DNA of 40,341 nucleotides, taken from positions 1 through 40,341 of IMG/VR virus record IMGVR_UViG_3300028835_002564; one strand, given 5' to 3'. Under the pieces are notes generated by a model. The model ran no database searches. It saw only the letters and a list, made by a program, of their open reading frames with translations, and was not told the DNA's origin. Within the stretch, counting starts at the first letter, position 1; each line of letters begins with the position of its first letter. The translations under genes and the position numbers were made by a program. Origin of the DNA: a virus. Below are positions 6,086 through 24,579 of the stretch, one piece after another.

Positions 6086-7051
6086 TCAAATCGGCAACTC
6101 CCTCCACTCGCGTCCGTCCAGCAGTGCACCGGCGGCTCGGTGACCGACACGGCGCATGTAACAGTCACCACGTCGAAAGTGTCCGTCATGCTCTCGGCCA
6201 TCACCATTCACCTGGTCAACTATCCCACGCCGCATGTCCCCACCAAGGTCGCCTCCAGCAAATGGCTCCCATGGCCCCCACCCCCCCCATCCCTTGAAGA
6301 AGAACGGCACCCTGGCTTTGACACAGTCATCCCGGGTCTTGCGAAACCAGTCTGGATGCGATGGCCTGGCCTCAGGGCCGGACTCGCCGCTGGCCACAAT
6401 CAGGTCTACAAACCGGCCTTTACCATCGCAGTCAGGGCAAGGTGTCCATTCAGCATCCTCGTCGGGTTCTATGCTTATTCGGTACCCGCCTTCGCCGCCA
6501 CAGCTTTCACAGTATAGGTATGGGCTGAAATCGACAGCACCCAATGCTGGCTCATACGAGACCCACAGCACAGGGGCGATCCCTCGCAGGTTCGCCAGCG
6601 CGTCGATTCGACAGGCCCAATCCTGGCTCTCGACCGATACTCCTGGCCAGACATTCTGTGGCCAGACCTCTTTGGGGAAGCCGGTATCCCTCTTGCTCAT
6701 TTGGCGTTGCTCCACGTGGTGGACCATAAGCCCTGGCCGCTTGGTGAGGAGAAAGAAGGTGTGGCGCTCCTCGGCGGCCATGACGTCAAAGACCTGGTCT
6801 CTGTAATACGTCGGCACAAGCGGGTGATAGAGGTCCCCCATGGAGGGGAGTAGGATCTTCTTTGATTTGCGCCAAGTCCCTGGCTCGCCCAGACGGCTCT
6901 CGTGGATATGTATGGTGTCAAAGGGACCTCGCTTCCAGCGCAGAGTCTCACGCTCCGCAAAGCAGTGCTGACACCCCGGGCTGATCTTGGTGCAGCCAGA
7001 TACTGGGTTCCAGGTAGCGTCAACATAAGGTATCGCAGTTTTGGCGCCCAT
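6086..7051 (-). CDS. DUF5131 (phage Gp37/Gp68) family protein
   Basis: About 321 residues matching the Gp37/Gp68-like DUF5131 family. The N-terminus has NPVSGCTKISPGCQHCFAE, a three-Cys cluster resembling those of radical SAM enzymes. Further hallmarks are LLTKRPG, WPGVSVESQ, WVSYEPALG and ESGPEARP, in family order. Activity is not established; the Cys motif suggests an iron-sulfur cluster. Unusually, a CESCGGEGG...CPDCDGKG insertion, like a DnaJ-type zinc ribbon, interrupts the segment between the EPALG and ESGPEARP motifs. The ATG at 7051 is preferred; a TTG at 7069 overlaps the integrase stop. Confidence 0.85.
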   Translation of the reverse strand: MGAKTAIPYVDATWNPVSGCTKISPGCQHCFAERETLRWKRGPFDTIHIHESRLGEPGTWRKSKKILLPSMGDLYHPLVPTYYRDQVFDVMAAEERHTFFLLTKRPGLMVHHVEQRQMSKRDTGFPKEVWPQNVWPGVSVESQDWACRIDALANLRGIAPVLWVSYEPALGAVDFSPYLYCESCGGEGGYRISIEPDEDAEWTPCPDCDGKGRFVDLIVASGESGPEARPSHPDWFRKTRDDCVKARVPFFFKGWGGWGPWEPFAGGDLGGDMRRGIVDQVNGDGREHDGHFRRGDCYMRRVGHRAAGALLDGREWRELPI

Positions 7052-7065
7052 TTTGCTTCCCCATC

Positions 7066-7938
7066 TCAAACGTTTGAGTCAACAGGTATTTCCTTCCAGA
7101 TAGCCAGCCAGGGGAGTGTTGAAAAAGCTATCTTGTCGAGGTCCACGTCCGAGGCCCCGGCCTCCACTCTTTTCCCATCCAGGTGGATCACCGTCGTCGG
7201 CGACGCATACCTCTCGGCGATATCCCGCGTCGAGGCCTTCCACCTCATGAAGTTGTGCGCGTCGACACTATTCAGGCCACCACGCATAAGGGTTTGTGTG
7301 ATCGTATGTCGGATCGCGTGCCAGGCAGCTCCCTTCCCCGAGGGGCCGAGCAGCCCTGCAGCAGCCTTCAACTCCGCGAATACCTTGGAAATGCTTGCTG
7401 GAGAGATGCGACGCCATCTGTAGGCACGCAGGTGCGGCAAGATCTCATCCGGTATCAGATGGTAGCGTTGCCGGCCGCCCTTATGAGTCTCAACGTAAAT
7501 CAGCCCACTCTCCCACTCGAAGTCCTCATCGCCGATTTCCCCGATCTCCACTCTGCGTATGCCGTAGGTGGTCGAGACGGCCAGAAAGGCCCGGTGTCGG
7601 TCCGTCATGCTGGCGGATGCCCTTATCAGGGCGGTGATTACGTCTTCACCTAGCGCAAGTCTGCTTTCGTCCCGTTCGCTGATAGTGGGACCTTCCCCTT
7701 TATTGAAAGGCCACGGGACCCCGTTGGCCTCAAAGATCCTCTTCAACACGCCGAAGTTAAACTTCAATGTTCCAGGCTTGCAGTGTCGCCTAGCCCGATA
7801 CTGTAACCAGGCCTCCACTGCCTCCCGGTCCAGCTCCCGGTCTCCTAACCAGGCGCAAAAGGCCCGGGCGTGGCCGATTATTGACCTGGATACACCGGGC
7901 TTAAGTTTACTCAAGTATGTTTCCAGTACGTCAGGCAT
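7066..7938 (-). CDS. Tyrosine recombinase (integrase)
   Basis: A 290-residue phage-type site-specific recombinase of the XerC/XerD fold. The N-terminal SAM-like core-binding domain covers about 1-85. All catalytic positions are visible: Arg128 (YGIRRVEI), Lys153 (THKGG), His207-x-x-Arg210 (WHAIRH), Trp233 (FMRWK) and the nucleophile Tyr244 (AERY). It would cut and rejoin attP and attB by a 3'-phosphotyrosine intermediate, giving integration and excision. The ATG follows AAGGAG. No attP core or tRNA fragment could be identified beside it. Presence implies a temperate or integrative lifestyle. Confidence 0.92.
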   Translation of the reverse strand: MPDVLETYLSKLKPGVSRSIIGHARAFCAWLGDRELDREAVEAWLQYRARRHCKPGTLKFNFGVLKRIFEANGVPWPFNKGEGPTISERDESRLALGEDVITALIRASASMTDRHRAFLAVSTTYGIRRVEIGEIGDEDFEWESGLIYVETHKGGRQRYHLIPDEILPHLRAYRWRRISPASISKVFAELKAAAGLLGPSGKGAAWHAIRHTITQTLMRGGLNSVDAHNFMRWKASTRDIAERYASPTTVIHLDGKRVEAGASDVDLDKIAFSTLPWLAIWKEIPVDSNV

Positions 7939-9808: not shown

Positions 9809-11692
9809 CTAGACACCCATCAGACAGGCCATTACACTCACTGAACCCATATTACTCTCCCTTTCCCATTCAACGTGCAACTGGGCTGACTTGGGTGGGC
9901 TGCCAGTATAGTCCCAGGCATCCCGTGTCTTGTAACTCCAGCTACTAGCAAAGTTCCTCCACCTGAAGCCTAAAGCGTTCCCAGCATAGCCTGGGCGGTC
10001 AACAATTTCCTGAACAACGGGTGAAATATCGGGGCTGTTATACTCTTGGTCGAGCGTCCAGGCGAGAATGGCGTTCCAGAGGACGTAGGCGATTGTCTGG
10101 TCCATGCCCGAAACCTCCGCCTTGCTTGTAGGAGCCAGAGCGTCATCATAGTCGTAGCCATAGATTCTCGTGTTGATATACGTTTCATCATTGCTCACTT
10201 CGGCGGTAAACGTTAGGTAGGCTCGAATTATCTTGGCACCCTGAGGGATGTTGCAATTCAGGAAGCGAACAACGATGTCATGCTCATAATCGGGGCCCGT
10301 GGGATCGTCAAAGAACGTCCCAACATGTATGGCAGCGTCGGTCCTATGCAGGTCAATCGTGTGCGTCCAACCGTCATCGAGGGTGTTAACGATCTGTCGG
10401 TCTAGCGTTGCCCCGGGACCCACCCCCCATAATGAGGACTCGATGTGGAGCCTCCCCCCGCCATACGTTGTCAGGTCAAAGGTGTCAAAGACACGCCGCG
10501 CAGCGACGTCCGATTCCATGTCCTTATCTTCAATAAAGAATATCACTGCACCACCTATGCCACCATTGTCATCCACAACCTGCTGCAACGCAGATACACA
10601 TGATGGAAGCTGGTAGGCTATTCCTGTGGTCCATGGTGCGATGCCGTCATAGGCGATTGGAGTCGTTCTAGTACGCCCAACATGGTCAGCATAACTCGAG
10701 ATTTGCCCTGGATTCCTGCTGTTCTCGAAGCAGATATCTGAGCGGACTACAGCTCCAGCCAGGTCTAAAACAGCTACGACTGTCACGTATGCGGCGTTTA
10801 TTGTCGCTCCTGGCGGTAAGTACACACCAAGGTAGCGCATACTGCCCCCATAGCCGTAGTGCGTAGCGTCCCAGGAGCCAAAACCTATGTAAGACGTAGT
10901 GTTGTACCAGCGTTGATCTCCGGCGTAGAAGCGGATTACTCGGTCATCGTCAGCGCCTTCGGATATGAAAAAGTCGATTGGCGGGTCGATGGTCAACGGA
11001 TAGATTAGCCCTGAGTCATCCAGTTCAAGGACAATCTCACCCTGACCAAACGATACGTCCAGATACCGCTCCTCCTGGTCTGGGCCTAAATCTCTACCAC
11101 TGGCATCTCTCACCCAGGGTCGCTTCAGCACTGCTACGATCTTCCCATTGTGCAGCAGGTTGCAACCCTGCCGTGTCAGACCCCGACTCTCATACGGGAG
11201 ATGGATCTTCTTGAAGTCTTCTACGGGTCGTGGCAGGTAGATGGAGAACTTGACTTGGCTGGTCTGTAGATGGAGCCGAAAGGTGTACTGCGGGCGTTCC
11301 CACGTCCAGATTCCACCGACTTTGCTCGTGGGTACCCCCAGGGTCAACTCCTCCGGCTTGCGAAGCTGAAACCAGACCTGGTCGTTTCCAGGAACAGGGT
11401 AGACACGCTTCTTACCATCATCCCCAAAGCGTACCCATCTCGGAATGCGGGTGAACTGGGCTTGGAATCCCTCACCGTCCGGCTCGGAGTGGTCAGGGTC
11501 AGCTTCCCTGTAGTCGCCGTATATGTCCTGATAGTTCTGCGGCTTGATGGCCAGGTCATGGACATGGACATGGCGTCGGATCTGGCGCCACTCCGCAGGC
11601 GCCTGGATAGGGTAATGAGCTGGGGGGTAGTCCTCATCCTCCCTGCTGTACAGGCGAGAGGTGAAAGTCCACCTGTCGCGGAGTGCCTTCAT
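9809..11692 (-). CDS. Virion fibre/surface protein, DNRLRE-like repeats
   Basis: A 627-residue, strand-rich protein at the end of the virion operon. An N-terminal domain of about 230 residues ends in a YPLTIDPPIDFFIS segment. Two related beta domains follow (about 250-410 and 430-615). Each opens with a PPGA/PQGA-(T/K)I-x-x-AY(V/L) signature and has a later IV-type strand block, as in DNRLRE/CBM96-like domains of surface proteins. I infer an exposed fibre, spike or host-binding protein. No transmembrane segment or signal peptide is seen. No chaperone gene is evident beside it. Confidence 0.55.
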   Translation of the reverse strand: MKALRDRWTFTSRLYSREDEDYPPAHYPIQAPAEWRQIRRHVHVHDLAIKPQNYQDIYGDYREADPDHSEPDGEGFQAQFTRIPRWVRFGDDGKKRVYPVPGNDQVWFQLRKPEELTLGVPTSKVGGIWTWERPQYTFRLHLQTSQVKFSIYLPRPVEDFKKIHLPYESRGLTRQGCNLLHNGKIVAVLKRPWVRDASGRDLGPDQEERYLDVSFGQGEIVLELDDSGLIYPLTIDPPIDFFISEGADDDRVIRFYAGDQRWYNTTSYIGFGSWDATHYGYGGSMRYLGVYLPPGATINAAYVTVVAVLDLAGAVVRSDICFENSRNPGQISSYADHVGRTRTTPIAYDGIAPWTTGIAYQLPSCVSALQQVVDDNGGIGGAVIFFIEDKDMESDVAARRVFDTFDLTTYGGGRLHIESSLWGVGPGATLDRQIVNTLDDGWTHTIDLHRTDAAIHVGTFFDDPTGPDYEHDIVVRFLNCNIPQGAKIIRAYLTFTAEVSNDETYINTRIYGYDYDDALAPTSKAEVSGMDQTIAYVLWNAILAWTLDQEYNSPDISPVVQEIVDRPGYAGNALGFRWRNFASSWSYKTRDAWDYTGSPPKSAQLHVEWERESNMGSVSVMACLMGV

Positions 11693-11698
11693 CTGTAC

Positions 11699-12880
11699 CT
11701 ACATCAGCAGCTCGAATAGGCTGGGGTTGAGGCCACCAACAGAAGTGGGGAGGGCAGCCGAGATCTCAATCGAAAGGTCCTCGGTGGTCACGAGGCTATT
11801 CACATCGTCATTGAACCAGTTAGGCTCGAACCTTCCCCCATTGTCGTTTACACTCAAGGCCGTCCAGATCGCACGATGGTCATCAGCAACCACACTGTAC
11901 TGGGTTTGGGCACCCCAGCTCGTGAGCCCGTCGTCTGACACCCTACCGTAGGCGTGTTCGGTGGCCCCAAAGGTGCCGCCTAAGTAGCCGACGTAGATGT
12001 CGTCATTCTGCTGATTCACCATCACCGCTGGCATCGGCACATGGCCGCCCTCAGCCGTAAAGAGATCGTCTCCCGCCGTTACGGTTCCCGAGCCGTCAAC
12101 CACGAAAGACCTCATGGTCGCTGCGCCAGCGTAGGTCGTGCATGTGACTAGGATGACCAGATTATCAGAGTGTCGCGGAGCCGCGCCAAAGTGCAGGTAG
12201 TTGAACATATTGACCGACGCGAGCGTGGTAACAACACCGGACTCAGACCAAGAGTTTCCTGTGTCGTCATAGGTCTTGACGGTGATCTCCTGAGTGCTGA
12301 TATCCCCGTAGATACACCAGATGTCGTTGTCGTCGGCCTCGTTACCCGGCATCAACAGGATGTGGTCTTGGGCAGCACCGTCTGCCATCGTAGCTCGGGC
12401 CCCCCAGGCCGCCCCTCCATTGGTAGAGCGATAAAAGTAGTTCGAGCCGACATTTGTAAAGAAACCCGCATAGAGGTTGCCACCCCTGGCCTTTACCAGG
12501 CTCAGGATCGAAGTGGTGGGAGCAGGACCGGCGCGAATCGCGACCTCTCCCCCGAAGGAGTCATCAGAGGTATCGAGCTGCCGGTACGCGACGTTTCCCG
12601 AGGGCGTCTTTATGAAGACAATGTGTATGATCGTCCCGGCATCGGAAGCCTGGGTCCACTGGTCGAACCAGATCGCCACCCTGAGATTGGCGACGCCAGA
12701 GACCACCACACGCGCGGACCAGGCAGCACCGCCGTTGGTGGTCTTGCGATAAACCACGAAGTCGTCCGAGTCGATATAAAAAGCATAGCCCGTATCGGGA
12801 TCCACCCAGACGAGATTGCTGCTATACGTGGTCTGCCAGGAAGTGCCCTGTATGAACGCATCTATGTTTACATCAGACAT
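11699..12880 (-). CDS. BNR/Asp-box-like beta-propeller protein
   Basis: A 393-residue protein with repeated Asp-box-like motifs: TTNGGAAW near residue 48, STNGGAAW near 155, and SDDGLTSW near 320. These, with alternating strands throughout, indicate a sialidase-like beta-propeller. In viruses such propellers serve in receptor binding or glycan cleavage; the catalytic Arg triad of sialidases is not identifiable, so binding is more likely than hydrolysis. Its ATG overlaps the end of the activase gene by 13 nt, so their translation is coupled. Confidence 0.6.
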   Translation of the reverse strand: MSDVNIDAFIQGTSWQTTYSSNLVWVDPDTGYAFYIDSDDFVVYRKTTNGGAAWSARVVVSGVANLRVAIWFDQWTQASDAGTIIHIVFIKTPSGNVAYRQLDTSDDSFGGEVAIRAGPAPTTSILSLVKARGGNLYAGFFTNVGSNYFYRSTNGGAAWGARATMADGAAQDHILLMPGNEADDNDIWCIYGDISTQEITVKTYDDTGNSWSESGVVTTLASVNMFNYLHFGAAPRHSDNLVILVTCTTYAGAATMRSFVVDGSGTVTAGDDLFTAEGGHVPMPAVMVNQQNDDIYVGYLGGTFGATEHAYGRVSDDGLTSWGAQTQYSVVADDHRAIWTALSVNDNGGRFEPNWFNDDVNSLVTTEDLSIEISAALPTSVGGLNPSLFELLM

Positions 12881-14949
12881 CTCTCGGGCCGCTCCCCAGC
12901 CTCCTTACCTACAAGCGCCTCCCACTTCCCGCAGCGGCTCCCGAAAGCGGCCGCCACCTCTTTTTCTCGTAACAATAGGGCGACATCGCACTCGTTACTG
13001 CAATCGTGACACTGGATTCCCTTCGTGGAGAAATCGACACCAACAACCGTACTCATCTCCCACATACCAGTAGGCTTGCTGGCCGCAGCCATTATGGCCG
13101 CTCCGATGGCCCCTGTCGTCTCATGGTGGGGCGGTACGATTATGTCGGTAGCCAGGGTCCGCTTGAATCCCTCCACCACTGCGGCATTGCCAGCCACTCC
13201 ACCGGTGAAGACCACCGGCTCCTGGAGGCGACGGTTGCGGGCCACGTTATTGATATAGTTGCGAGGAAGAGAGAAACAGAGACCCCGTATCAATGACGGA
13301 ATGTCGTGGCCCTGCTGCTGCTTGGTCACCACATCGGACTCGGCGAAGACCCCGCACCTCCCCGCGATCCGGATCTCCTCCCCACAGGCCAGGGCTGTAG
13401 GACCCATCTCCTCGACCGGGATCCCAAACTCCCGCGACGCTCCGGCCAGGAAGCTCCCAGTACCCGCGCTACAGATCGTGTTCATGTTGTACCAGGTCGG
13501 GACACCCCTCGAGTCGAGCTGTATCAACTTCGAGTCCTGGCCACCGATCTCTATTATGCTTCTGGCATTCGGGACGTACTGAAGGACGCCCAGTGCTTGG
13601 CACGTTATCTCATCCGCTATCACTTCAGTTCCCAGCATGGCCGCAGCGAGGTGCCGCCCTGACCCTGTGACACCCACGGCCGTGATCCCCTGCCCGTCGA
13701 TCTGTCGCCTGAGCTGGTCAAGGCAGAGACCGACCGCCCTTACCGGGTTCCTCGATGTTGCCAGGTAGGCCTCTGCCAATATCTCCAGTTCGCCATTCAG
13801 GACCACGGCCTTGGTGGACACAGAGCCTACGTCGACACCCAGGAACAGGCCCGACACCCTTTCAGAAAGCACCGCCCTTGAAAGCGACCCTCCTCCCTCC
13901 TGGCGGAGCTTCCGCCGCAGGCGGAGGATGTTCACCAGGGCCTCGACCCGGGTCTGGAGATTGGCCTCGGCAAAATGTGCGTCAAAGGTCAGGTGAATGA
14001 GGGGAATCCCGTAGTCCTGGCTCACCTGGTCCAGGAAGGCCGAGACGGTGCTCTCTGGTGCGCAGGGAAAGGGAGCCACATGAACCACGCCGTCGAAGCC
14101 CGCCAGGGCGTAGTAGATGGACCAGATTATGCTCTCCTTGCCATGACCGCCGACGTCGTAGTGTGGCAGGTACCGCTCGGCCTCCCTGCGGGCCCGCCGA
14201 AGGAGGTTATTATCCACGTCGGACCTCTTCAGGCCGCGGAGATAGACAAGTGCGCGTTCAGGAAAGATGAAAAGGTGGCGCACCATTCGGCTTAACCGAT
14301 CTCGTAGTGGCCATGCTGCCCACAGGTGGCTGTAGAGAAACGCACTCAGCGGCAGGGCCACGTGGACCTGTGCCCCAGCCTTCCTGAGCCGCTCCAGGAC
14401 GCCGAGATTGGCATCCGGATCCAGCAATGTGAATATCTCTCCACAGACCCCCACGCATGGCCCGCCATGACTTGGATCTGCCTGGTAAGGTAGTACATGG
14501 GTCTTATCGTATTCTTCAACGGCTCTGAAGCCCCGACGAAAGGCCTTGAAGATGACCCGTAGAGGCACACCCATTTCCCTGAGCCGCTGGATACCCCTCA
14601 CCGACATCGATATACCATACATGGGTAGGTCATGGCCGATGCGGTTGAGAACAGACCCCAGAAGGATGTGGTAGACCTTGAAGCGGCAGGAATTGCAGGT
14701 ATCCCACTGGGCCAGACCATCGACTGGCCCTTTATCAATGGCGTCCAGGTAGTTGCCGAGGTTGATCTTGGCTGGCAGGCACATATTCTCATCGAGGAGC
14801 TGCCAGCCGCGAAGAATTGTGCCCCTCGTGGTACGTGGGGGGCTCTTCAACCTGATGGGGAGTTGGTGTTTTCGTAATACTTGATTGATCGCTCTACAGA
14901 TAACGGCTGCGTAGGGTCCCATGTTGGGAACGACAAAGTAGCGTTTCAT
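12868..14949 (-). CDS. 2-hydroxyacyl-CoA dehydratase activase fusion
   Basis: A 693-residue protein of the BcrA/BadF/BadG/HgdC activase family. Residues about 1-345 resemble the DUF2229/HgdB-like domain (ENMCLPAKINLGNY, DTCNSC, GPCVGVCGE). Residues about 368-625 form the ASKHA ATPase: GVDVGSVSTK at 371, GGQDSK at 469, TICSAGTGSF at 491, RCGVFAESDV at 531, GGVAGN at 583. Cys493 and Cys532 match the two iron-sulfur ligands of HgdC with the same 39-residue spacing. The C-terminus adds a Cys cluster (647-673). Family members use ATP to inject a low-potential electron into radical dehydratases or benzoyl-CoA reductase. No dehydratase is encoded here. It overlaps the downstream virion gene by 13 nt. 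Confidence 0.92.
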   Translation of the reverse strand: MKRYFVVPNMGPYAAVICRAINQVLRKHQLPIRLKSPPRTTRGTILRGWQLLDENMCLPAKINLGNYLDAIDKGPVDGLAQWDTCNSCRFKVYHILLGSVLNRIGHDLPMYGISMSVRGIQRLREMGVPLRVIFKAFRRGFRAVEEYDKTHVLPYQADPSHGGPCVGVCGEIFTLLDPDANLGVLERLRKAGAQVHVALPLSAFLYSHLWAAWPLRDRLSRMVRHLFIFPERALVYLRGLKRSDVDNNLLRRARREAERYLPHYDVGGHGKESIIWSIYYALAGFDGVVHVAPFPCAPESTVSAFLDQVSQDYGIPLIHLTFDAHFAEANLQTRVEALVNILRLRRKLRQEGGGSLSRAVLSERVSGLFLGVDVGSVSTKAVVLNGELEILAEAYLATSRNPVRAVGLCLDQLRRQIDGQGITAVGVTGSGRHLAAAMLGTEVIADEITCQALGVLQYVPNARSIIEIGGQDSKLIQLDSRGVPTWYNMNTICSAGTGSFLAGASREFGIPVEEMGPTALACGEEIRIAGRCGVFAESDVVTKQQQGHDIPSLIRGLCFSLPRNYINNVARNRRLQEPVVFTGGVAGNAAVVEGFKRTLATDIIVPPHHETTGAIGAAIMAAASKPTGMWEMSTVVGVDFSTKGIQCHDCSNECDVALLLREKEVAAAFGSRCGKWEALVGKEAGERPERCLM

Positions 14950-14961
14950 CCCGTTTGGCCC

Positions 14962-15222
14962 TCACAGCATCTGAAGGATCTGATCGATTACGGCAGCCTC
15001 CACGTCAAACGTGAGTTCCTTCTTCGTAATCGCACCGAATTTTAAGTCGGTGGTAAGGGCGTTCGCCGTTAAAGCAAGGGATGTCGATGACCTGGCCTTT
15101 CCAGTTAGGTCTCGAACCTCCTGAAAGATTCCGGTGACATCGTGCTCAACGCCGCCGCTGTCCCAGACTCGGCATGTTGCCGCTCCGTCTTCAAACTCTA
15201 TTTGGATCCGGTTCGTAGGCAT
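14962..15222 (-). CDS. Small virion-operon protein
   Basis: An 86-residue protein after GGAGG. The N-terminal half has strand pattern (RIQIEFEDGAATCRVWDSGG), the C-terminal half is helical and ends IDQILQML. It lies between beta-rich structural genes and the activase. Probably a minor structural or assembly protein, judged only by position. Confidence 0.5.
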   Translation of the reverse strand: MPTNRIQIEFEDGAATCRVWDSGGVEHDVTGIFQEVRDLTGKARSSTSLALTANALTTDLKFGAITKKELTFDVEAAVIDQILQML

Positions 15223-15232
15223 CCAGGGCCTC

Positions 15233-15775
15233 CTAAGAGGTGTTGAAGTAGAACCTGAGCCCCACTAGGGCATCGTTTAGTCTGAGTACGTCAAGGTCTA
15301 CAACCTGGTTCTCAAAGCGTAGGTTGTAGGTTGCATCTCCGTCTACCTCCCCCTTCACGTCGTTGTCTCCTACCAGCACATCACCTGACTCCCTGGTAGA
15401 CGCGGCCACGGTCCAGAGGTTGTCCGGGAGGTTGATGGCCGCCAGGTCGTCTACGCCCCAAGCGCCGGTGGACTTCTTGACGCGGATCGCCTGGGCGCCG
15501 TCGATGGCGTTTGCACCGCCCCCTGCGGTGTTCTCGATGGCCCGGACCTTGAGTATCGCCACGACCCTGGCCAAAGACACCCCGGTTGGCAGACCGCTCA
15601 CCACGACGTTCGGAAGGTTGACATCGGCGGCCTCTCCAGGTCCCAGGTCGATGACGTCGTCCGAGTCCGACCAGAAGTCGAAATAGTTAATGGCCTTCTC
15701 GCCCTCGCTGGTGACGGCGCTCTCCAACGCAGCCTGCAAGGCCGCTATATCTGCTGGGCTGATGCCAAATCCCAT
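15233..15775 (-). CDS. Putative virion structural protein
   Basis: A 180-residue protein. The ATG at 15775 sits behind GGAG, just after the upstream stop; a longer frame to 15889 is rejected. An N-terminal helix (SPADIAALQAALESAV) precedes a strand-rich, acidic body with DLGPGEAADVNLPNVVVSG and late DLDVLRLNDALVG strands. The pattern fits a beta-sandwich surface protein. No family named. Confidence 0.5.
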   Translation of the reverse strand: MGFGISPADIAALQAALESAVTSEGEKAINYFDFWSDSDDVIDLGPGEAADVNLPNVVVSGLPTGVSLARVVAILKVRAIENTAGGGANAIDGAQAIRVKKSTGAWGVDDLAAINLPDNLWTVAASTRESGDVLVGDNDVKGEVDGDATYNLRFENQVVDLDVLRLNDALVGLRFYFNTS

Positions 15776-15777
15776 AG

Positions 15778-16461
15778 CTATCGCTCCGTACCTGTAATCA
15801 AACCATCTACGGTGACACCCGTGCCATCCGTCGAGAGCACCTCTATGACGACAGAAGTCCCCGCTGCCAGGACGTTTCCTGTTGCCCAAGGGATTCTAAC
15901 AAGCGAAGCGAGCTGCACGTCAGGGACATTTTGGTCTACGCCGGCGATAGTTACCCTGTAGCGCGTCTTGGCAGCATTATCTGTCGCCAGTGAGATCTCG
16001 CCGAGGTCGCCGGTGGAACCGGCTGGTATGTCCCAGCGCACCAGTTCCGTCCAGACCAACGCTCCAATGGTTTGCCGGTCCCACCTGAAGATCGGCAAAC
16101 CAACGAGTGTTGCCTCGGCCTCACTGGGGTAGACCATGTACTCCGAGGTTTCGTCCGGCGCCGTCGAGAAGGCATTTACGGGAACGATCCCTGTGGCTAT
16201 GTTGCTTAAGATCCTGCGGGCCTGGCCCACCCCCGTGCCACCTATAATACGGACGTAGGAGCCCGCCCATATATTTACAGCCCAATCCTTCGACGAATCG
16301 TCCAGCCTATTTATCGTAGATGTTTCGTCGGCAATGCCCCGGTCCACATCACCTACACTGGGCTGAACAGACACCTCCACCGGCACGGTCGCGGTTATAT
16401 CGTGGGTGTAGTCGGCTACTCCAGTTCCAGTTATCGGGACTGTGTAGGTTTCGACTCTCAT
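15778..16461 (-). CDS. Putative virion structural protein
   Basis: A 227-residue beta-rich protein with a good GAAGGAG start. Residues about 60-110 carry a segment with GGTGVGQARRILSN and PDETSEYMVYP. I recognise this G-x-GQ-x-R-x-I...P-TS-Y pattern from phage virion and fibre proteins. The rest is strand-rich and Thr/Val-heavy. Likely exposed on the virion; role inferred from pattern and position. Confidence 0.55.
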   Translation of the reverse strand: MRVETYTVPITGTGVADYTHDITATVPVEVSVQPSVGDVDRGIADETSTINRLDDSSKDWAVNIWAGSYVRIIGGTGVGQARRILSNIATGIVPVNAFSTAPDETSEYMVYPSEAEATLVGLPIFRWDRQTIGALVWTELVRWDIPAGSTGDLGEISLATDNAAKTRYRVTIAGVDQNVPDVQLASLVRIPWATGNVLAAGTSVVIEVLSTDGTGVTVDGLITGTER

Positions 16462-16463
16462 GG

Positions 16464-17039
16464 TTACGTCTCCTTCACCGAAACCGTGGCGGTGATCCTA
16501 TGCGCTCCTACAGCATGGTTCTCGATGTTCACCCAGATCTCCTCGTTCATATCCACAGGCTCGTTGAAGTAGTAAGTTGGCGTGACATCGTTAAGAGCCA
16601 GGAACCCATCCCTCGGGCATAACTGGGACGTACCATGCCACACAGCGACACCAACCAGGCCCCAGCAGCCGGCAGGCCAATGGATGATAACTGAAGTTAT
16701 CAGGCCGGGGAACGGGGAGGTTTCGTACATCCTGATGGCGGCACCACCGATGAGGTTCCGCTCAAACGGGATGAGTTCTATCCTCTTTGCTGGCAATTGT
16801 ACCCCAACTGTTTCGGCCATGGCGCCAATGTTCGCAGAAACTGCGTCGAGCTTTCTACCATTGTTTTGAATCCCTTGAACCACCTCCCGGGTGAGGGAAT
16901 TCAGGCCATGTATGGCCTCCCGATTCCTGCGGACCTCGGTGATTACTCCAGTGAAGTCGGCGGTAACTGGTGGAAACTCCTCAGCTTCCTCCTCCTCCAT
17001 GTACACCCGGTATCCTGGCCCTCTATCTCTGCTCAGCAT
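16464..17039 (-). CDS. Putative virion protein, coiled-coil plus beta domain
   Basis: A 191-residue protein whose ATG overlaps the previous stop (TAATG) behind GGAGAG. Residues about 25-75 are helical with heptads (TEVRRNREAIHGLNSL), suggesting an oligomerising stalk. The C-terminal 110 residues are beta-rich with aromatic strands (VIIHWPAGCWGLVGVAVW). A stalk-plus-head arrangement fits a trimeric virion attachment protein. No homolog named. Confidence 0.5.
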   Translation of the reverse strand: MLSRDRGPGYRVYMEEEEAEEFPPVTADFTGVITEVRRNREAIHGLNSLTREVVQGIQNNGRKLDAVSANIGAMAETVGVQLPAKRIELIPFERNLIGGAAIRMYETSPFPGLITSVIIHWPAGCWGLVGVAVWHGTSQLCPRDGFLALNDVTPTYYFNEPVDMNEEIWVNIENHAVGAHRITATVSVKET

Positions 17040-17851
17040 TAGATCTCTCCAGAATCGAATATGAGGCGGAAGTCGTGAAGGTGCAGGTCCCTCTGTGCGG
17101 CTATCCTGCTACCGACCATAGCCAGAGGCTTCAACTGGGTTGTTGGAAGGTTTGTTGTGTGTGTCGCAACGAGTGTACCATCGAGGACAAGTCTTGCATC
17201 GTCCCCAGCGTCACTGACACACATATTGATGCAGACGTGGCCGGTGGGTGGAGCACCAAGGGGGGTGCTGGTTGATACCCCACCCGACCGAGTAACGAAG
17301 CGCAGGTTGCCGTCTACGCTACTGTCGTATTCGATCCAGATACCGTCGTCGGGGGTTGCCCAGGCAGCCCCGTCGCCTGTTTCAAGGTTTGCCGCTCCCA
17401 CCAGACCGCGAATGGTATAAAGATTGGCGGTGTTAGGAATTGCTAGGACCAGGTGAAGGTGGGGGCTGACCGCCACGGACACGGGATAGTTACCGCCAGT
17501 GTGGAGGGCTACCCAGTCGTCGATATTTGCTCCGAGCCCACATAGCTGGAGGCCTCCGCCTATCTCGTTGGCGACGACGAAGTTCCCCACTGCTGGAGCC
17601 GGGTTCCCGTTTGTGTCCCAGGACCGGGAAAGCGAAATTCCGAGGATCGCAGGTACGAACTGCGCGGGGCCGACATAGTCCTCTTTGATTGACCTTCCAG
17701 GCATGGCGTCGAAGAGCACCCACTCCGCGTCGCCTTCGTCGCACCGGTTCCATATCTCCCGGCGGTTCTTGGTGGGATTATAGGTGTACCTCACCCTCTC
17801 CCCTGCGTAGAGGGAGTCTATCAGTTGCATACCTATCCGTGGTATGGGCAT
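17039..17851 (-). CDS. Lectin-fold-like virion protein
   Basis: A 270-residue protein. From about residue 65 the strand pattern (DGIWIEYDSSVDGNLRFVTR, and a later ARLVLDGTLVATHTT) fits a concanavalin-like jelly-roll seen in viral adhesins. N-terminal residues are polar with a YTYNPTKNRREIWNR stretch. It follows a strong terminator-like hairpin at 17867-17903, so its expression may be lowered relative to upstream genes. Fold call is by pattern only. Confidence 0.5.
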   Translation of the reverse strand: MPIPRIGMQLIDSLYAGERVRYTYNPTKNRREIWNRCDEGDAEWVLFDAMPGRSIKEDYVGPAQFVPAILGISLSRSWDTNGNPAPAVGNFVVANEIGGGLQLCGLGANIDDWVALHTGGNYPVSVAVSPHLHLVLAIPNTANLYTIRGLVGAANLETGDGAAWATPDDGIWIEYDSSVDGNLRFVTRSGGVSTSTPLGAPPTGHVCINMCVSDAGDDARLVLDGTLVATHTTNLPTTQLKPLAMVGSRIAAQRDLHLHDFRLIFDSGEI

Positions 17852-19630: not shown

Positions 19631-20350
19631 CTAAGCCCTCCCTTCCATGACTTTAAGGGTCCAATCCATCAGCTTTTCTGGTTTTCCCCCTACTACCAGG
19701 TCAACATCCGCTAAGGTCCTAAGCCACTGTGGTACTTCGGCGGGGTTCGGGTCTATTCCCGCCATCGTGTACAGCCTTCGTTGCCGCTTTCCGAGGAGGA
19801 TTGCCTTGACCTCCTCGGGGTCGGTGAGAATCTCGTAGGTGTACCGCATGACATCGAGGTTCAGGGCGACCAGCGGCATGGCGTCTGCAAGTGGATTGTG
19901 AGCCTGGAATGCGGTGTAGAGCTCCTTGACCGTGAAGAACTCGGTCTTGGCCGAGAAGGGTCCCTGATAGGGGCTCATGTTGCCGTCAACGTAGCCAACA
20001 TCACCGCCGACGGCACGCTGTATTGCTACCAGGGCGTTCCTGTCCTGCCTGGAGGGGTACTGGAAGTAGATACGGACGGCAGGCTTGTTCACCCCCCAGA
20101 AATAGTGGTGGATGAACCTGTTAGCTGGGGGCTCCGTGTACCGCCGATTGGAAGCATCCAGCAGATCGTCCCATGCAGCCAATGCGGTGCCAGCGGCAAG
20201 GCTGGCAGACAGTACGTAGGGTTTGACGTTGGAGCCTTCCAGTCCAAGGATGCGCACACAGACCCAACCCTGGAGGAACTGCATACTGAGGAGGTGCCCT
20301 TCGCGGAGCCACATGTCCTCGTGGCTCTGCTTGAGCAACGAAACTTTCAT
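19631..20350 (-). CDS. Capsid protein candidate (239 aa)
   Basis: The ATG at 20350 lies 5 nt after AAGGAGG, so the start is clear; the frame extends to 20398 without a site. The 239-residue product has an N-terminal strand-rich half and PPANRFIHHYFWGVNKPAVR, then NP- and Y-rich segments (FQAHNPLADAMPLVALN). It sits next to a 237-residue protein between perfect hairpins. Paired single jelly-roll capsid proteins of similar size occur in Thermus phage P23-77 and halosphaeroviruses, but I cannot confirm a jelly-roll from sequence. It may equally be a penton or minor capsid protein. Confidence 0.4.
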   Translation of the reverse strand: MKVSLLKQSHEDMWLREGHLLSMQFLQGWVCVRILGLEGSNVKPYVLSASLAAGTALAAWDDLLDASNRRYTEPPANRFIHHYFWGVNKPAVRIYFQYPSRQDRNALVAIQRAVGGDVGYVDGNMSPYQGPFSAKTEFFTVKELYTAFQAHNPLADAMPLVALNLDVMRYTYEILTDPEEVKAILLGKRQRRLYTMAGIDPNPAEVPQWLRTLADVDLVVGGKPEKLMDWTLKVMEGRA

Positions 20351-20398
20351 ATTGGCCTCCTTCTCAACCTTCTCTTGCGGGTTGGCTGCCAATGACAA

Positions 20399-20427
20399 CT
20401 GCTGGGCAGGTTGGCCCTGCCCAGCAG
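20399..20427 (-). terminator. 12-bp perfect hairpin between capsid candidates
   Basis: CTGCTGGGCAGG (20399-20410) and CCTGCCCAGCAG (20416-20427) form a perfect stem with a 5-nt loop. The downstream minus-strand sequence (TTGTCATT) is only mildly T-rich, so it may be a partial terminator or mRNA-stability element. Confidence 0.6.
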
Positions 20428-20441
20428 TATTTCATATTCTA

Positions 20442-21155
20442 TTACCAGGCCGCTGCGACCTCGTTCAGCCTGCGGCCGAGGCCGATGACAAGGCCACCGG
20501 GCTGTAGATCCAGGTTCCCTCCGCTGTCGCTCAGGATCCGCATGAACCAGGTGTCATCGGGGAGCAGCAGTAGCGTAGGTATCGGGTACACGGAAACGCC
20601 GTTGAGGTTGTCTCCGATAACCATGTCCCGTAGGTTGATTGGAACCAGGTTTGTCCTCCCCATGTCAGTCTGCATCTCGGAGACCAATGGCGTTGGGGTG
20701 ACCAGGCTGGTGAGGTGGGTCACCACTATGCCGAATTCACGCGGCAAGGCGTAGGATGCGGCAGCACCGTCCCCGATGAAGGCCGTCCAGGTGGCGGCCA
20801 CTACACCCGGCTCTCGCCAGTTCGCGCGATAAGTCGCCGTTGCGGGGTCGTGTGTGAACTGCGGACGGATCGGCTGGAATCCCAGCTCGGTGTCCGTGGG
20901 GTTCAGGCCCCGGAAGGCTATACCGTTGAGCGCCTGCTTTATCGCCCGGATGGCCGAGACGTAGGCCTCAACCCTCTGGAGCTGGATCTGGCGCGTGATG
21001 CTCGTTGGCGCTGCCAGCAGCGTCGGGAACTGGGCGTTGAAGATCGCAAGTTCTTGAGCATCCAGGGGGTGCAACTGGAAGTCTGTGCGGTACAACCGTA
21101 ATGACTCTCGCGTAAGCGCGGGGTCCTCCATCGTTAGCGGGCGATATTCGTCCAT
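20442..21155 (-). CDS. Major capsid protein candidate (237 aa)
   Basis: A 237-residue protein with a consensus GGGAGG start. The first 85 residues are helical and polar (LRLYRTDFQLHPLDAQEL). From about 115 it is beta-rich: REFGIVVTHLTSLVTPTP, then TNLVPINLRDMVIGDN and VYPIPTLLLLPDD. Strong ribosome site, its own hairpin-bounded segment and location beside the membrane proteins argue for the main coat protein. I do not recognise an HK97-fold signature or a matching scaffold/protease gene. A jelly-roll fold is a hypothesis. Confidence 0.45.
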   Translation of the reverse strand: MDEYRPLTMEDPALTRESLRLYRTDFQLHPLDAQELAIFNAQFPTLLAAPTSITRQIQLQRVEAYVSAIRAIKQALNGIAFRGLNPTDTELGFQPIRPQFTHDPATATYRANWREPGVVAATWTAFIGDGAAASYALPREFGIVVTHLTSLVTPTPLVSEMQTDMGRTNLVPINLRDMVIGDNLNGVSVYPIPTLLLLPDDTWFMRILSDSGGNLDLQPGGLVIGLGRRLNEVAAAW

Positions 21156-21194
21156 GGTTTACCTCCCTGTTTGGCGGGATAGGCTTATTAACCC

Positions 21195-21229
21195 AACGAC
21201 GAACCTATCTACACGATAAGTTCGTCGTT
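21195..21229 (-). terminator. 15-bp hairpin over a stop codon
   Basis: Arms 21195-21209 and 21215-21229 pair over 15 bp with one G:U and a 5-nt loop. The hairpin contains the stop codon of the 21209-21604 gene and precedes the capsid candidate. It is followed by GGGTTAATAAG on the minus strand. Confidence 0.55.
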
Positions 21230-21604
21230 CTTCGTCTCTCTTGCCCCGGGGTTGCCGGGATTACCGGGGTTGCCCCTCTTCCCTGCGATCTCCCTTGGGT
21301 TACCGCCGCCGAGGGGTCGCCGACCGTTCCCACCTCCAGACCCTCTCCGGGCTGGCCACACCGACTTGACGGCGAAGTGCCCGAGCGACCCGGCGCTTGA
21401 GGACGCGACCCCCTCCGCTACCTGCGCCATCCGAGGGCCCAAGGTCATTGCGCCCAACAACCCGATCATCCCACCTCCGAAGGTGACGATGGTGCCCAGA
21501 GTCGGGTTAAACCTGTAGCTGGCCGCCTCGATCAGGCCTGCGCCAAAGGCGGACCCTATCGTGGTCGCCTTATCCATCATTGGGACCGGAATTGCCCTTG
21601 CCAC
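21209..21604 (-). CDS. Small membrane protein, virion block
   Basis: A 131-residue protein starting at a GTG behind GGAGGTG; an in-frame ATG at 21679 lies inside the structured leader and is rejected. Residues about 10-55 contain two hydrophobic, Gly-rich spans (TIGSAFGAGLIEAAS, then IVTFGGGMIGLLGAMTLG). The C-terminal 60 residues are Gly/Arg/Asn/Pro-rich, with GNPGNPGNPG repeats, and basic. A membrane anchor with a basic low-complexity tail suits a virion membrane protein contacting DNA. Confidence 0.6.
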   Translation of the reverse strand: MARAIPVPMMDKATTIGSAFGAGLIEAASYRFNPTLGTIVTFGGGMIGLLGAMTLGPRMAQVAEGVASSSAGSLGHFAVKSVWPARRGSGGGNGRRPLGGGNPREIAGKRGNPGNPGNPGARETKNDELIV

Positions 21605-21628
21605 GGCTTCACCTCCATATGTTTCTTG

Positions 21629-21698
21629 TGGGAGCGCCTGGCTTGCAAAGTAAAAGCCTGGGAGCTTGAACTTCCACAAGCTCCAGGCGCTCCCAGGC
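21629..21698 (-). promoter_or_regulatory. Structured leader with exclusive hairpins
   Basis: Two mutually exclusive RNA pairings on the minus strand. Pairing 1: TGGGAGCGCCTGG arms at 21629-21641 and 21683-21695 match perfectly over 13 bp. Pairing 2: a local hairpin over 21656-21688 (GGAGCTTG with CAAGCTCC, extended to 12 bp with one bulge), followed by TTTTACTTT, as in an intrinsic terminator. They share 21683-21688, so only one can form. This resembles an attenuator between the promoter at 21712-21739 and the GTG at 21604. Confidence 0.6.
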
Positions 21699-21711
21699 TA
21701 CCGCCACCAAT

Positions 21712-21739
21712 CTTATACACCCTTTTTGCCGATTGTCAA
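21712..21739 (-). promoter_or_regulatory. Near-consensus promoter of capsid block
   Basis: On the minus strand: TTGACA, a 16-nt spacer, then TATAAG (5 of 6 matches to TATAAT). The start point near 21704 would yield a roughly 100-nt leader that contains the 21629-21698 hairpins. Confidence 0.75.
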
Positions 21740-21756
21740 CCTCCTGAAGGTGATCC

Positions 21757-22380
21757 TCATTTCTTCAACCTACTCAGCTCCACGCGCCATCGCGGCCTAG
21801 CACCCGCCAGAAGTCCACTCCTGATCTCCCGAAAGGAGACGTCATTGAACCGCAAGTAGGGTACATAAGCTGGAGCCTCCAGCCGCAGAGGCCACTGCGG
21901 GTCCCGTGTAGGCTCCACGACAAGAGCCTGACCATTCTTGAAGACTGTAATCCAGGCGTGGCCATAGCCCTCCCAGAGTCCGATAGTGGCGAATACTTCA
22001 TCGTCAGAGAGCCGGTTGCGCAGGACTGAAACACCCACAAACGTCATGTCCTCACAGTCCCCGGTCCCTTGCGCCAGTGTCTCTGCCGGCATTTGCCAGT
22101 AATCGTATCTGGTCTCGCTGAAAAGGGCCACACGGGGCTCAAAGACCTTCACACCCCCCGCCTGCTGTAGAAATGCCTCCTGGTAGCGATAGTCGTATGG
22201 CTCCACTGGTGGATAACTTATGTGCCGCGCGATGTATCTCCAGGTATCGAGTACCGCCTGGTCTTTGTCGGCAGGCAGTCCCTCGGCGACGTCCAAGACG
22301 GGGGCACTCAAGGGCTGTATGAACTCCCGGATGTCCCTCATCTCTCCGAAGAAGCGCACCTGCACCAGGTATTGATCCAA
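21757..22380 (-). CDS. Transglutaminase-like cysteine protease
   Basis: A 207-residue protein of the bacterial transglutaminase-like/papain superfamily. Cys109 in GTGDCEDMT and His141 in YGHAWITVF are in the right order and spacing. The third position is probably Glu156 (VVEPT), where Asp is usual. Such domains cut peptide or amide bonds, or crosslink. Here it lies directly upstream of the capsid block, so virion maturation or cell-wall entry are possible roles. No signal peptide is seen. The start is a TTG behind AAAGG; the ribosome site is weak, so the N-terminus is uncertain. Confidence 0.75.
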   Translation of the reverse strand: MDQYLVQVRFFGEMRDIREFIQPLSAPVLDVAEGLPADKDQAVLDTWRYIARHISYPPVEPYDYRYQEAFLQQAGGVKVFEPRVALFSETRYDYWQMPAETLAQGTGDCEDMTFVGVSVLRNRLSDDEVFATIGLWEGYGHAWITVFKNGQALVVEPTRDPQWPLRLEAPAYVPYLRFNDVSFREIRSGLLAGARPRWRVELSRLKK

Positions 22381-22390
22381 GGGGGAGCCT

Positions 22391-22777
22391 TTATCGGGTC
22401 CCTGCTTCTACAAGCGCCCGCCTGACACGGCCCGCTATGCTCGGCCTGCCGGCCCATGTCCCGCCATAGACGGACCCTTCCTCAAAGGTCACCGTATCTG
22501 AGCTGTCGATGGCATACCGCGATTCCGGGCTTACCATGTCCAAGATGACGATGGCGCTCATCGACCATCCGCCAAACACAATCACTGATACCTGAAGGCT
22601 TACTGGCGCTGAGGTCTGCCCCGGATCAAGGGTCACTGTAGCGACGTCCTCTACCCCAACGGCCTGGGGATCCCCCTCCCCATCGTAGGTGTTGACTAAC
22701 AACCTGGCCTCATAGGACGACCTGGCGTTCCCCGTGTTCGTTATGGTTCCTGTTGCGCTAGCTGTTCTGGTCGCCAT
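22391..22777 (-). CDS. CARDB-like beta-sandwich protein
   Basis: A 128-residue, strand-rich protein. An N-terminal TGTITNTGNARSSYEARL segment and a following VTLDPGQTSAPVSLQVSV fit a CARDB-like immunoglobulin-type beta-sandwich. The gene at 22950-23546 has the same opening pattern, so they may be paralogs on the virion surface. It lies 12 nt after the stop of the small membrane protein gene. Confidence 0.5.
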   Translation of the reverse strand: MATRTASATGTITNTGNARSSYEARLLVNTYDGEGDPQAVGVEDVATVTLDPGQTSAPVSLQVSVIVFGGWSMSAIVILDMVSPESRYAIDSSDTVTFEEGSVYGGTWAGRPSIAGRVRRALVEAGTR

Positions 22778-22789
22778 AGCGTGCTCCTG

Positions 22790-22939
22790 TTACTCAATGG
22801 TCAGTGTGAAGTCGATGCTTCCCGCTGGCTCTGGCTCTTCTGGCTCTTCGGCCTCCGCCTCCCTGGTCCAAAGCCAGTATACTCCGCCTGCCATAACAAG
22901 CGCACCGGCCCCCAGTACCAGCGCCTCTTCTGTTTTCAT
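22790..22939 (-). CDS. Small single-pass membrane protein (49 aa)
   Basis: A 49-residue protein with an ATG after GGAGGGG. The first half is a clear membrane span (ALVLGAGALVMAGGVYWLW), followed by an acidic EAEAEEPEEPEP tail. Small one-span proteins like this are typical of internal-membrane viruses. It lies between two beta-sandwich genes in the virion operon. Confidence 0.6.
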   Translation of the reverse strand: MKTEEALVLGAGALVMAGGVYWLWTREAEAEEPEEPEPAGSIDFTLTIE

Positions 22940-22949
22940 AGCACCCCTC

Positions 22950-23546
22950 CTAGAGCACGGACACTGTCAGTTCCGGTTGATCCTTGCCACCGTATGAAGC
23001 CATGGCCTCCAGTTTGCCCACGGCAATCGCCTCCTCCAAGCGGAAGGCATCGTCGAAGGTGCGGTCGCCCAGGCTCTCCACAAACTCGCCATAAGGATCC
23101 ACGTGAAGGACCTCGGCCACAACCTTGAAGGTTGCCCCGGCATGGTTCTTCCAGAAGTCCTCCAACCTGTCGGTGACGTCATAGCCGGGCAGGTACAGAG
23201 TGGTACGGGCAAGCAGGGTGAGGCCGGGTTCAAGAGTGACGATAGGGGCATCGTAGCTGGTGAAGAGGTCGGTTTCCGCAGAAACCAGGTCCACGTCCAG
23301 ACCCGGCCCTCCCTCTCTTGCGAGAGGAGTGAAAACCAACCATTCAACATCGTCCCTCCACGCCTTCGTCTCAATCACCCACACCTTGAGGGCAGCATGA
23401 GCGTCAGCATCCCCGACATTTCTGAGAGCCCATGAAAGTGAAATCGCCATCTGAATGGATGGTACTGGGATCGAACCAAGCTGCCCGATTCCCGGGGCTG
23501 GAATCTCCTCCTTCGGAGTATCGAAAATCCGACCAAATATACGCAT
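22950..23546 (-). CDS. Beta-sandwich virion protein
   Basis: A 198-residue protein after GGAGGG. Residues about 30-120 have WALRNVGDADAHAALKVWV and a VTLEPGLTLLARTTLYLP strand, a CARDB-like beta-sandwich similar to the 22391-22777 protein. The C-terminal third is helical (RLEEAIAVGKLEAM). A parS-like palindrome (23272-23285) is inside its coding sequence. Virion-surface location is inference. Confidence 0.5.
   Translation of the reverse strand: MRIFGRIFDTPKEEIPAPGIGQLGSIPVPSIQMAISLSWALRNVGDADAHAALKVWVIETKAWRDDVEWLVFTPLAREGGPGLDVDLVSAETDLFTSYDAPIVTLEPGLTLLARTTLYLPGYDVTDRLEDFWKNHAGATFKVVAEVLHVDPYGEFVESLGDRTFDDAFRLEEAIAVGKLEAMASYGGKDQPELTVSVL
23272..23285. promoter_or_regulatory. parS-like palindrome 3
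   Basis: GTTTCCGCAGAAAC: one central base differs from the perfect copy. It lies within a virion gene, so codon constraint may explain the change. Confidence 0.55.
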
Positions 23547-23559
23547 TCCCCCAACCCTC

Positions 23560-24123
23560 CTACGTTGACTCTACGGCAAGCACGGGCTGTCTGATACCTT
23601 CGTGCTCCTGGAGAGCCTGTAGCTTGCCCACTGGGACTGGCGGCTTCGGCGGGACAGGCTGCAATTCCCTGTACGCAAAATAGCCTCCGCCAGCCATGGC
23701 TGTTCCACCTGCCACAAGACTCGGCCATCTCCCCTTCCCCACCATCATTATAACGCCCCCGATCACCACAGCACCCAGCGGTATAACAATGCCCTTGATG
23801 GTCCTCAGCCACTGCTCCGCCGTTATCTTCGAGAGCTTCCAGGCAAGGAGGCCTATGGGCAATGCTCCAAGACCAAAAATGATTAGCGGAAGGAAGAAAA
23901 CGCCTACCTCGAATTGGATAGAAAGGACACCGTCATCGTCCTGGGTGAGTGGGGCGGTGATGATAAAGGCCTGCCCGTCCCAGGCCTGTTCAAGTGTCGC
24001 GAGCTCCTGCTTGGAGAGGAGATCGCTAAGTGTCAACTCCAGGAGCCCATGGTCGCCCTCATCGAATTGCTCCTCGAGCGCGGCAAGTTCTGCGGCGAAC
24101 TCTCTCAGGTCCAGGGGTACCAT
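23560..24123 (-). CDS. Membrane protein with three spans
   Basis: A 187-residue protein. The start is the ATG at 24123 behind GGAGGTG; the frame extends to 24210 without a site. The N-terminal 90 residues are acidic and helical (LREFAAELAALEEQF). Three hydrophobic segments follow: VFFLPLIIFGLGALPIGLLA, then IVIPLGAVVIGGVIMMVG, then SLVAGGTAMAGGGYFAY. The C-terminus is Pro-rich. Likely part of an internal virion membrane or the host-membrane assembly site. Confidence 0.6.
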   Translation of the reverse strand: MVPLDLREFAAELAALEEQFDEGDHGLLELTLSDLLSKQELATLEQAWDGQAFIITAPLTQDDDGVLSIQFEVGVFFLPLIIFGLGALPIGLLAWKLSKITAEQWLRTIKGIVIPLGAVVIGGVIMMVGKGRWPSLVAGGTAMAGGGYFAYRELQPVPPKPPVPVGKLQALQEHEGIRQPVLAVEST

Positions 24124-24137
24124 CTGCACCTCCAGCG

Positions 24138-24569
24138 TCAACGCACCGGATGGTATGGGGCGACACGTAGAAAGGTGTCCACGGCACGCTTGGCTTCGCC
24201 AGCATACCATTGAGGATATCGCTTGACAACAGCAACTTGCTCGGGCAACTTCTCGGCCACCACTTCCAGCACCTGGTCCCAGTTCAGGGACCTGGTCATG
24301 GTAGGGACGTCCACGTCGACCTCCTTGAGGTCGAAAAGGGCCACGGTCTTGAGTTCATCTGGAATCAGGTTCAGCCAGAGGTCGGTTATCGAGCCTCCAG
24401 ACTGGATGTAGTGCTCGAGGGCTGCGGGCTTGAACTCTTGGAGAACAAAACAAATGCCGGGCACATAGCTCCCCCTATGTCTGAAGCCATGGGCTATCTT
24501 CCGCTGAGTCCGCCGACGTATGAACTCAGTGCCTAGCTTTCCGGCGTAATCGCTGACCTTTTTCAGCAA
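24138..24569 (-). CDS. Hypothetical protein, basic N-terminus
   Basis: A 143-residue protein starting at TTG behind GGAGG at 6-nt spacing. The N-terminal 30 residues are basic (EFIRRRTQRKIAHGFRHRG). The centre holds short hydrophobic helices and strands (LWLNLIPDELKTVALFDLKE). No signal or membrane span is clear. Function unknown; position suggests assembly. Confidence 0.5.
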   Translation of the reverse strand: MLKKVSDYAGKLGTEFIRRRTQRKIAHGFRHRGSYVPGICFVLQEFKPAALEHYIQSGGSITDLWLNLIPDELKTVALFDLKEVDVDVPTMTRSLNWDQVLEVVAEKLPEQVAVVKRYPQWYAGEAKRAVDTFLRVAPYHPVR

Positions 24570-24579
24570 AGCCGACCTC

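Follow-up and report, generated by a model that had tools for sequence, protein, structure and literature searches.

A virus-like element encodes a fusion of a B-type reductase subunit and its activase, a candidate single-chain BCR/HAD reductase

The window, that is, the whole stretch of DNA analysed (40,341 nucleotides), is an IMG/VR record whose minus strand carries, amidst fibre- and propeller-like genes, a long ORF that joins a reductase-type domain to an activase. In the following list B and C denote the reductase-type subunit and the activase of a cellular A-B-C module, and the sister is a second element with the same gene; both are taken up below.

9809..11692, minus strand: 627-aa fibre-like ORF, absent at the same place in the sister
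11699..12880, minus strand: 393-aa propeller-like ORF, absent at the same place in the sister
12868..12880, minus strand: 13-nt overlap of the activase stop and the start of the next ORF, ATGTCTGATGTAA
12868..14949, minus strand: 693-aa B-C fusion of a reductase-type subunit and an acyl-CoA dehydratase-type activase (uninterrupted ORF, profile matches)
12931..13011, minus strand: C-terminal Cys motif (C647, C650, C654, C673), kept in the activases of the A-B-C module
13081..13848, minus strand: ASKHA ATPase domain, about residues 368-623, with the HgdC/HadI/MbdQ/DCCP-R fold (profiles, structure match)
13354..13356, minus strand: C532 codon, second ligand of the predicted cluster, 39 residues after C493 (invariant)
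13471..13473, minus strand: C493 codon, ligand of a predicted inter-subunit [4Fe-4S] cluster (invariant)
13900..14949, minus strand: N-domain, residues 1-350, B-type BCR/HAD reductase subunit with three invariant Cys
14062..14064, minus strand: C296 codon, predicted [4Fe-4S] ligand, in a stretch aligning with DCCP and HadC (invariant in 16/16 sequences)
14686..14688, minus strand: C88 codon, predicted [4Fe-4S] ligand (invariant in 16/16 sequences)
14779..14781, minus strand: C57 codon, predicted [4Fe-4S] ligand (invariant in 16/16 sequences)
14962..15222, minus strand: 86-aa ORF immediately upstream of the fusion, conserved in the sister
15233..17851, minus strand: upstream fibre-like genes, colinear in the sister contigs

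Elsewhere the element encodes DnaB, a DnaC-like loader, ParB, a phage-type integrase, a DNA methylase and a DUF5131 protein (window 6086-7069).

Examination of the C-terminal half reveals a complete BcrAD_BadFG activase at residues 369-622 (E 3e-47, 161.8 bits, far above the Pfam cut-off of 31.5 bits), which also passes the cut-off of TIGR00241 (CoA_E_activ; 154.8 versus 125.4 bits). With the intact ORF this bears out the preliminary description of the DNA, which had reported a complete activase at 12868-14949 with two Fe-S cysteines at the 39-residue spacing of HgdC, intact ATP-binding motifs and a 13-nt overlap with the propeller start: the overlap is present in the sequence, both cysteines are invariant, and the ATP site keeps its glycine and acidic motifs unchanged relative to cellular relatives. 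The CxxCx3C...C motif lying 3' of the ATPase domain is likewise common to those relatives. In the predicted model of the fusion (pLDDT 79.5, pTM 0.80) the ATPase matches the ASKHA fold of HadI, HgdC and MbdQ with Z-scores of 31-33 at 30-33% identity and that of DCCP-R at Z 26, for example 33.5 to 9gai_D and 30.9 to 1hux_A; a fold search with the whole model tests the ATPase only, and the N-domain is assigned from sequence profiles. Together these features indicate that the activase is complete and probably functional.

The N-terminal half had been described as an HgdB/DUF2229-like domain placed before the ATPase. The likeness is there, but it falls below the gathering scores of Pfam DUF2229 (PF09989; 22.1 versus 29.4 bits) and HGD-D (PF06050; 20.5 versus 28.4 bits), and profiles built from cellular relatives give a B-type assignment instead. 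Residues 1-350 can be aligned from end to end with the B proteins encoded in cellular operons; a profile of the B-type proteins matches DCCP (2e-4) and HadC (2e-3) around the third cysteine, C296. A tree built from reductase domains groups the viral N-half with B proteins and the Red2 domains of PlsA-type proteins (100/100), apart from A/Red1. It is without about 45 residues that are present in cellular B proteins and has an extra insert of about 30 residues that is poorly modelled. Judged by these profiles and alignments the N-half is a B-type reductase subunit of the cellular A-B-C module and, going by BCR/HAD family architecture, we take its three cysteines to fit a [4Fe-4S] reductase/dehydratase subunit. 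The earlier remark that no dehydratase or reductase is encoded nearby is therefore misleading, since one half of the reductase is joined to the activase, and we regard the viral protein as a reductase that comes with its own activase. In a profile search neither the window nor the available sister contigs yielded a separate A gene.

The cellular module to which both halves belong is carried by Chloroflexota genomes and consists of A (~300-350 aa), B (~360-400 aa) and C (~320 aa), with three invariant cysteines each in A and B, which are fused in some cases and vary in order. It also occurs in Bacillota, and on a Monoglobus plasmid the genes stand in the order A-B-C with annotated products, those of the module being an acyl-CoA dehydratase activase-related protein, a 2-hydroxyacyl-CoA dehydratase and an acyl-CoA dehydratase activase. 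A is present beside B in every module examined whole, and the neighbours of the modules gave no consistent functional hint. The virus shares with the module the B and C domains, the Cys positions, the C-terminal Cys motif and the order B then C; it differs in having B fused to C and no A, and in its location in a virus-like element. In one cellular locus (L095, G413:C27) B and C lie in one frame with a single stop between them, likely an intermediate form of the B-C fusion, so that the viral fusion corresponds to this operon order minus the stop. The reductase-first arrangement, earlier held to be unusual, is thus unusual beside the large PlsA-type fusions but is the plain operon order of this module.

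Several known systems are assembled from the same kinds of domains. The PlsA/PlsR plasmalogen synthase and the glycerol ester reductase GER share the activase, A-type and B-type domains, but PlsA-type proteins are built as C-C-A-B with two ATPases first, whereas the viral protein is one B followed by one C. Among them is a 1416-aa protein on an Enterococcus faecalis-type contig (L092), which matches the single-gene plsA architecture already described (PMC12838417); as a phage carrier of an activase this contig, with its full-length PlsA-type gene, was rejected, since it looks like bacterial DNA. The double-cubane cluster protein, named for its [8Fe-9S] cluster, and its reductase (DCCP:DCCP-R; YjiM-YjiL) likewise have a reductase directly before an activase, and one type of each, but in separate genes and with an ATPase in another clade than the viral one. 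HgdC and HadI have the ASKHA fold and the two cluster cysteines 39 apart, but are stand-alone activators in a clade apart from the viral ATPase. Methanogenesis marker 15 (TIGR03286) has a sequence like the end of the viral N-half before its activase, with a match over viral residues 284-622, but the fusion scores 128 against an equivalog cut-off of 455.75. The domains themselves are already known, while the B-C fusion and its placement in a virus-like element appear to be new.

Phylogenetic analysis places the viral ATPases on a long, deep branch as sister to the activases of the A-B-C module (88/83). This position is not decisive: the best tree prefers it, but the AU test does not reject kinship with the second activase domain of PlsA (act2; p-AU 0.26). 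The 25 stand-alone HgdC-like activases in the sample all fall together in a single clade (support 100), with the virus outside it. Leaving aside the sister copy, the nearest sampled cellular genes are 42-46% identical, with a maximum of 47% for a fragment, a ceiling that rests on Chloroflexota-relative genomes, other phyla being barely sampled. No close host copy turned up, and the composition of the gene fits the element. On this sampling the fusion is best placed as a deep viral branch with no recent host copy.

The sister is a 12.1-kb contig (L002) of the Chloroflexota MAG CSMAG_2717 and encodes the same fusion at 86% amino acid and 84% nucleotide identity. The same upstream genes adjoin it, the remaining locus is largely colinear, and two other contigs of this MAG hold much of the remaining sister genome. 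The window and the sister are the only two elements known to carry the B-C fusion. A Chloroflexota host is suggested, from co-binning only. The propeller/627-aa fibre cassette (9809-12880) is absent at the corresponding place in the sister, and an LVIVD-repeat propeller occurs elsewhere on the contig, the sister loci compared being L002:4541-4848 and L002:11516-12118; surface proteins have apparently been swapped. The sister further encodes a 263-aa protein (L002:10198-10989) that is PAPS-reductase-like by eye, with no Pfam match.

Comparison of the two copies gives a dN/dS of 0.153 for the whole gene and 0.075 for the ATPase, the lowest among 12 genes compared (other genes, 0.195-0.58); the fusion is under strong purifying selection. 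Identity drops from ~0.92 to 0.76 near position 13,960, at the linker between the B and C domains, and synonymous change jumps at the same point (pS 0.19 versus 0.58). The two halves of the gene therefore differ in recent history, which suggests recombination inside the fusion gene at the B/C linker (~13960).

In light of the above, we propose, with a probability of about 0.6, that the fusion is an auxiliary metabolic enzyme of the virus-like element, namely a single-chain, ATP-dependent, low-potential BCR/HAD reductase. Enzymes of this type are known from anaerobic microbes; their reactions are among those of lowest potential in biology, and they are linked to strict anaerobes. For the clusters, the dimer, the electron flow and a role in infection we infer the following scheme. 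Two fusion chains would pair such that a single [4Fe-4S] cluster is held between the two C-terminal ATPase domains by C493 and C532, and a host ferredoxin or flavodoxin would donate an electron to it. ATP binding and hydrolysis would lower the potential of this shared cluster, from which the electron could move on to the N-domain [4Fe-4S] cluster (C57/C88/C296), which in turn would reduce a substrate beyond the reach of ordinary carriers. Such a homodimer would be Act2-Red2 and so match DCCP:DCCP-R, or one PlsA chain, in its number of domains. Since subunit A is missing, the fusion may form this homodimer, as is the case for DCCP, or recruit an A subunit from the host, which would join in place of the second N-domain; B alone may not suffice, given that A accompanied B in each of the cellular modules examined whole. 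A counterpoint to the metabolic reading is that the gene sits among structural-looking genes rather than metabolic ones. If the proposal holds, a virus keeping such a reductase under strong selection implies that its chemistry limits infection of the host, and the single-chain B-C form would represent, at its smallest, the machinery that underlies the synthesis of plasmalogens and ether lipids, convenient for testing the electron hand-over from activase to reductase.

A more specific reading, tentative and clearly less probable, is that the fusion is an ether-lipid enzyme which, in the manner of PlsA-PlsR and GER, turns acyl-ester lipids into vinyl or alkyl ethers, whether in the host or in a virion membrane. 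These systems take ester-bound to ether-bound lipids (PMC9702350, PMC13274423) and have been tied by experiment to plasmalogen and alkyl-ether formation (PMC12838417, PMC9702350, PMC13274423). PlsA-type fusions consist of the same parts, and both the clustering of the viral N-domain with B and Red2 domains and the unrejected kinship with PlsA act2 point in the same direction. However, the domain set of PlsA and GER comprises two activases, Red1 and Red2, whereas the viral fusion has one activase and one reductase domain, without A/Red1. Moreover, the tree favours the A-B-C module, itself without an assigned function, no further lipid gene was recognised in the window, and a virion membrane is hypothetical. 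Lipid esters are nevertheless our best specific guess for the substrate, by analogy, since they are what the best-studied assemblies built from these domain types work on. That the virus rewrites the membrane lipids of an anaerobic host from ester to ether with a self-contained BCR/HAD reductase, thereby remodelling the host cell or the virion membrane, seems to us a still longer shot.

The preliminary description had proposed an ATP-driven electron injector, lacking a reductase, that recharges 2-hydroxyacyl-CoA dehydratases or similar fermentation enzymes of the host. A complete HgdC-like ATPase with its cluster cysteines is what such an activator would need, but the ATPase lies outside the HgdC-type clade, the protein has kept its own B-type domain with cluster cysteines, and activases are usually partner-specific; we consider this proposal improbable. 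Recruitment as a structural or scaffold protein of the virion, to which the position between fibre-like genes and the overlap with the next one might point, is more doubtful still: the catalytic and cluster residues are preserved without exception, the ATPase is the part under the strongest selection, and the sister retains the fusion without the neighbouring propeller/fibre cassette. An assembly chimera or stray host gene, a suspicion raised by two other IMG/VR contigs with chimeric-looking activase pieces and already thought unlikely in the preliminary description, is for practical purposes refuted by the sister contig, a separate, independent record at 84% nucleotide identity with the same upstream junction, and by the composition of the gene, its selection and its distance from the nearest sampled cellular genes.

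These two contigs were the yield of an activase profile in IMG/VR; both are short, with activase sequence beside or inside phage ORFs (L093:2985-4379, L094:1-1392) that breaks off at phage genes, so that they appear to be assembly chimeras and were set aside as viral activase carriers. No further relatives were recovered from IMG/VR with queries for P0001, P0001+P0002, the neighbouring genes or the B profile, a search that needs exact short peptides. A BFVD fold search gave only Kae1, Hsp70 and actin-like viral proteins as named strong matches. The INPHARED records matching activases (OR84/MT83) are short, unannotated contigs; the one that was inspected is the bacterial-looking L092 mentioned above. 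Curated sources and the open-access literature yielded no earlier report of a B-C fusion in a virus, the database scans being limited to peptide patterns; within this scope the earlier impression that a viral ATP-driven electron injector is undescribed holds.

The neighbourhood had also been called a virion operon. The fusion does overlap the next ORF, but profile and structure attempts gave no convincing match of the propeller/fibre ORFs or the capsid-like module to a known virion family. The term remains a guess, because among the proteins scanned none could be recognised as a capsid, portal or terminase (weak matches only); the AF2 model of the capsid candidate has a pLDDT of 32. The module at 19631-25734 may hold the capsid genes and possibly points to an undescribed virus family; it recurs at ~45% identity in another Chloroflexota-relative MAG (L049). 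This module, seen also in L044, includes a transglutaminase-like protein without a known capsid match.
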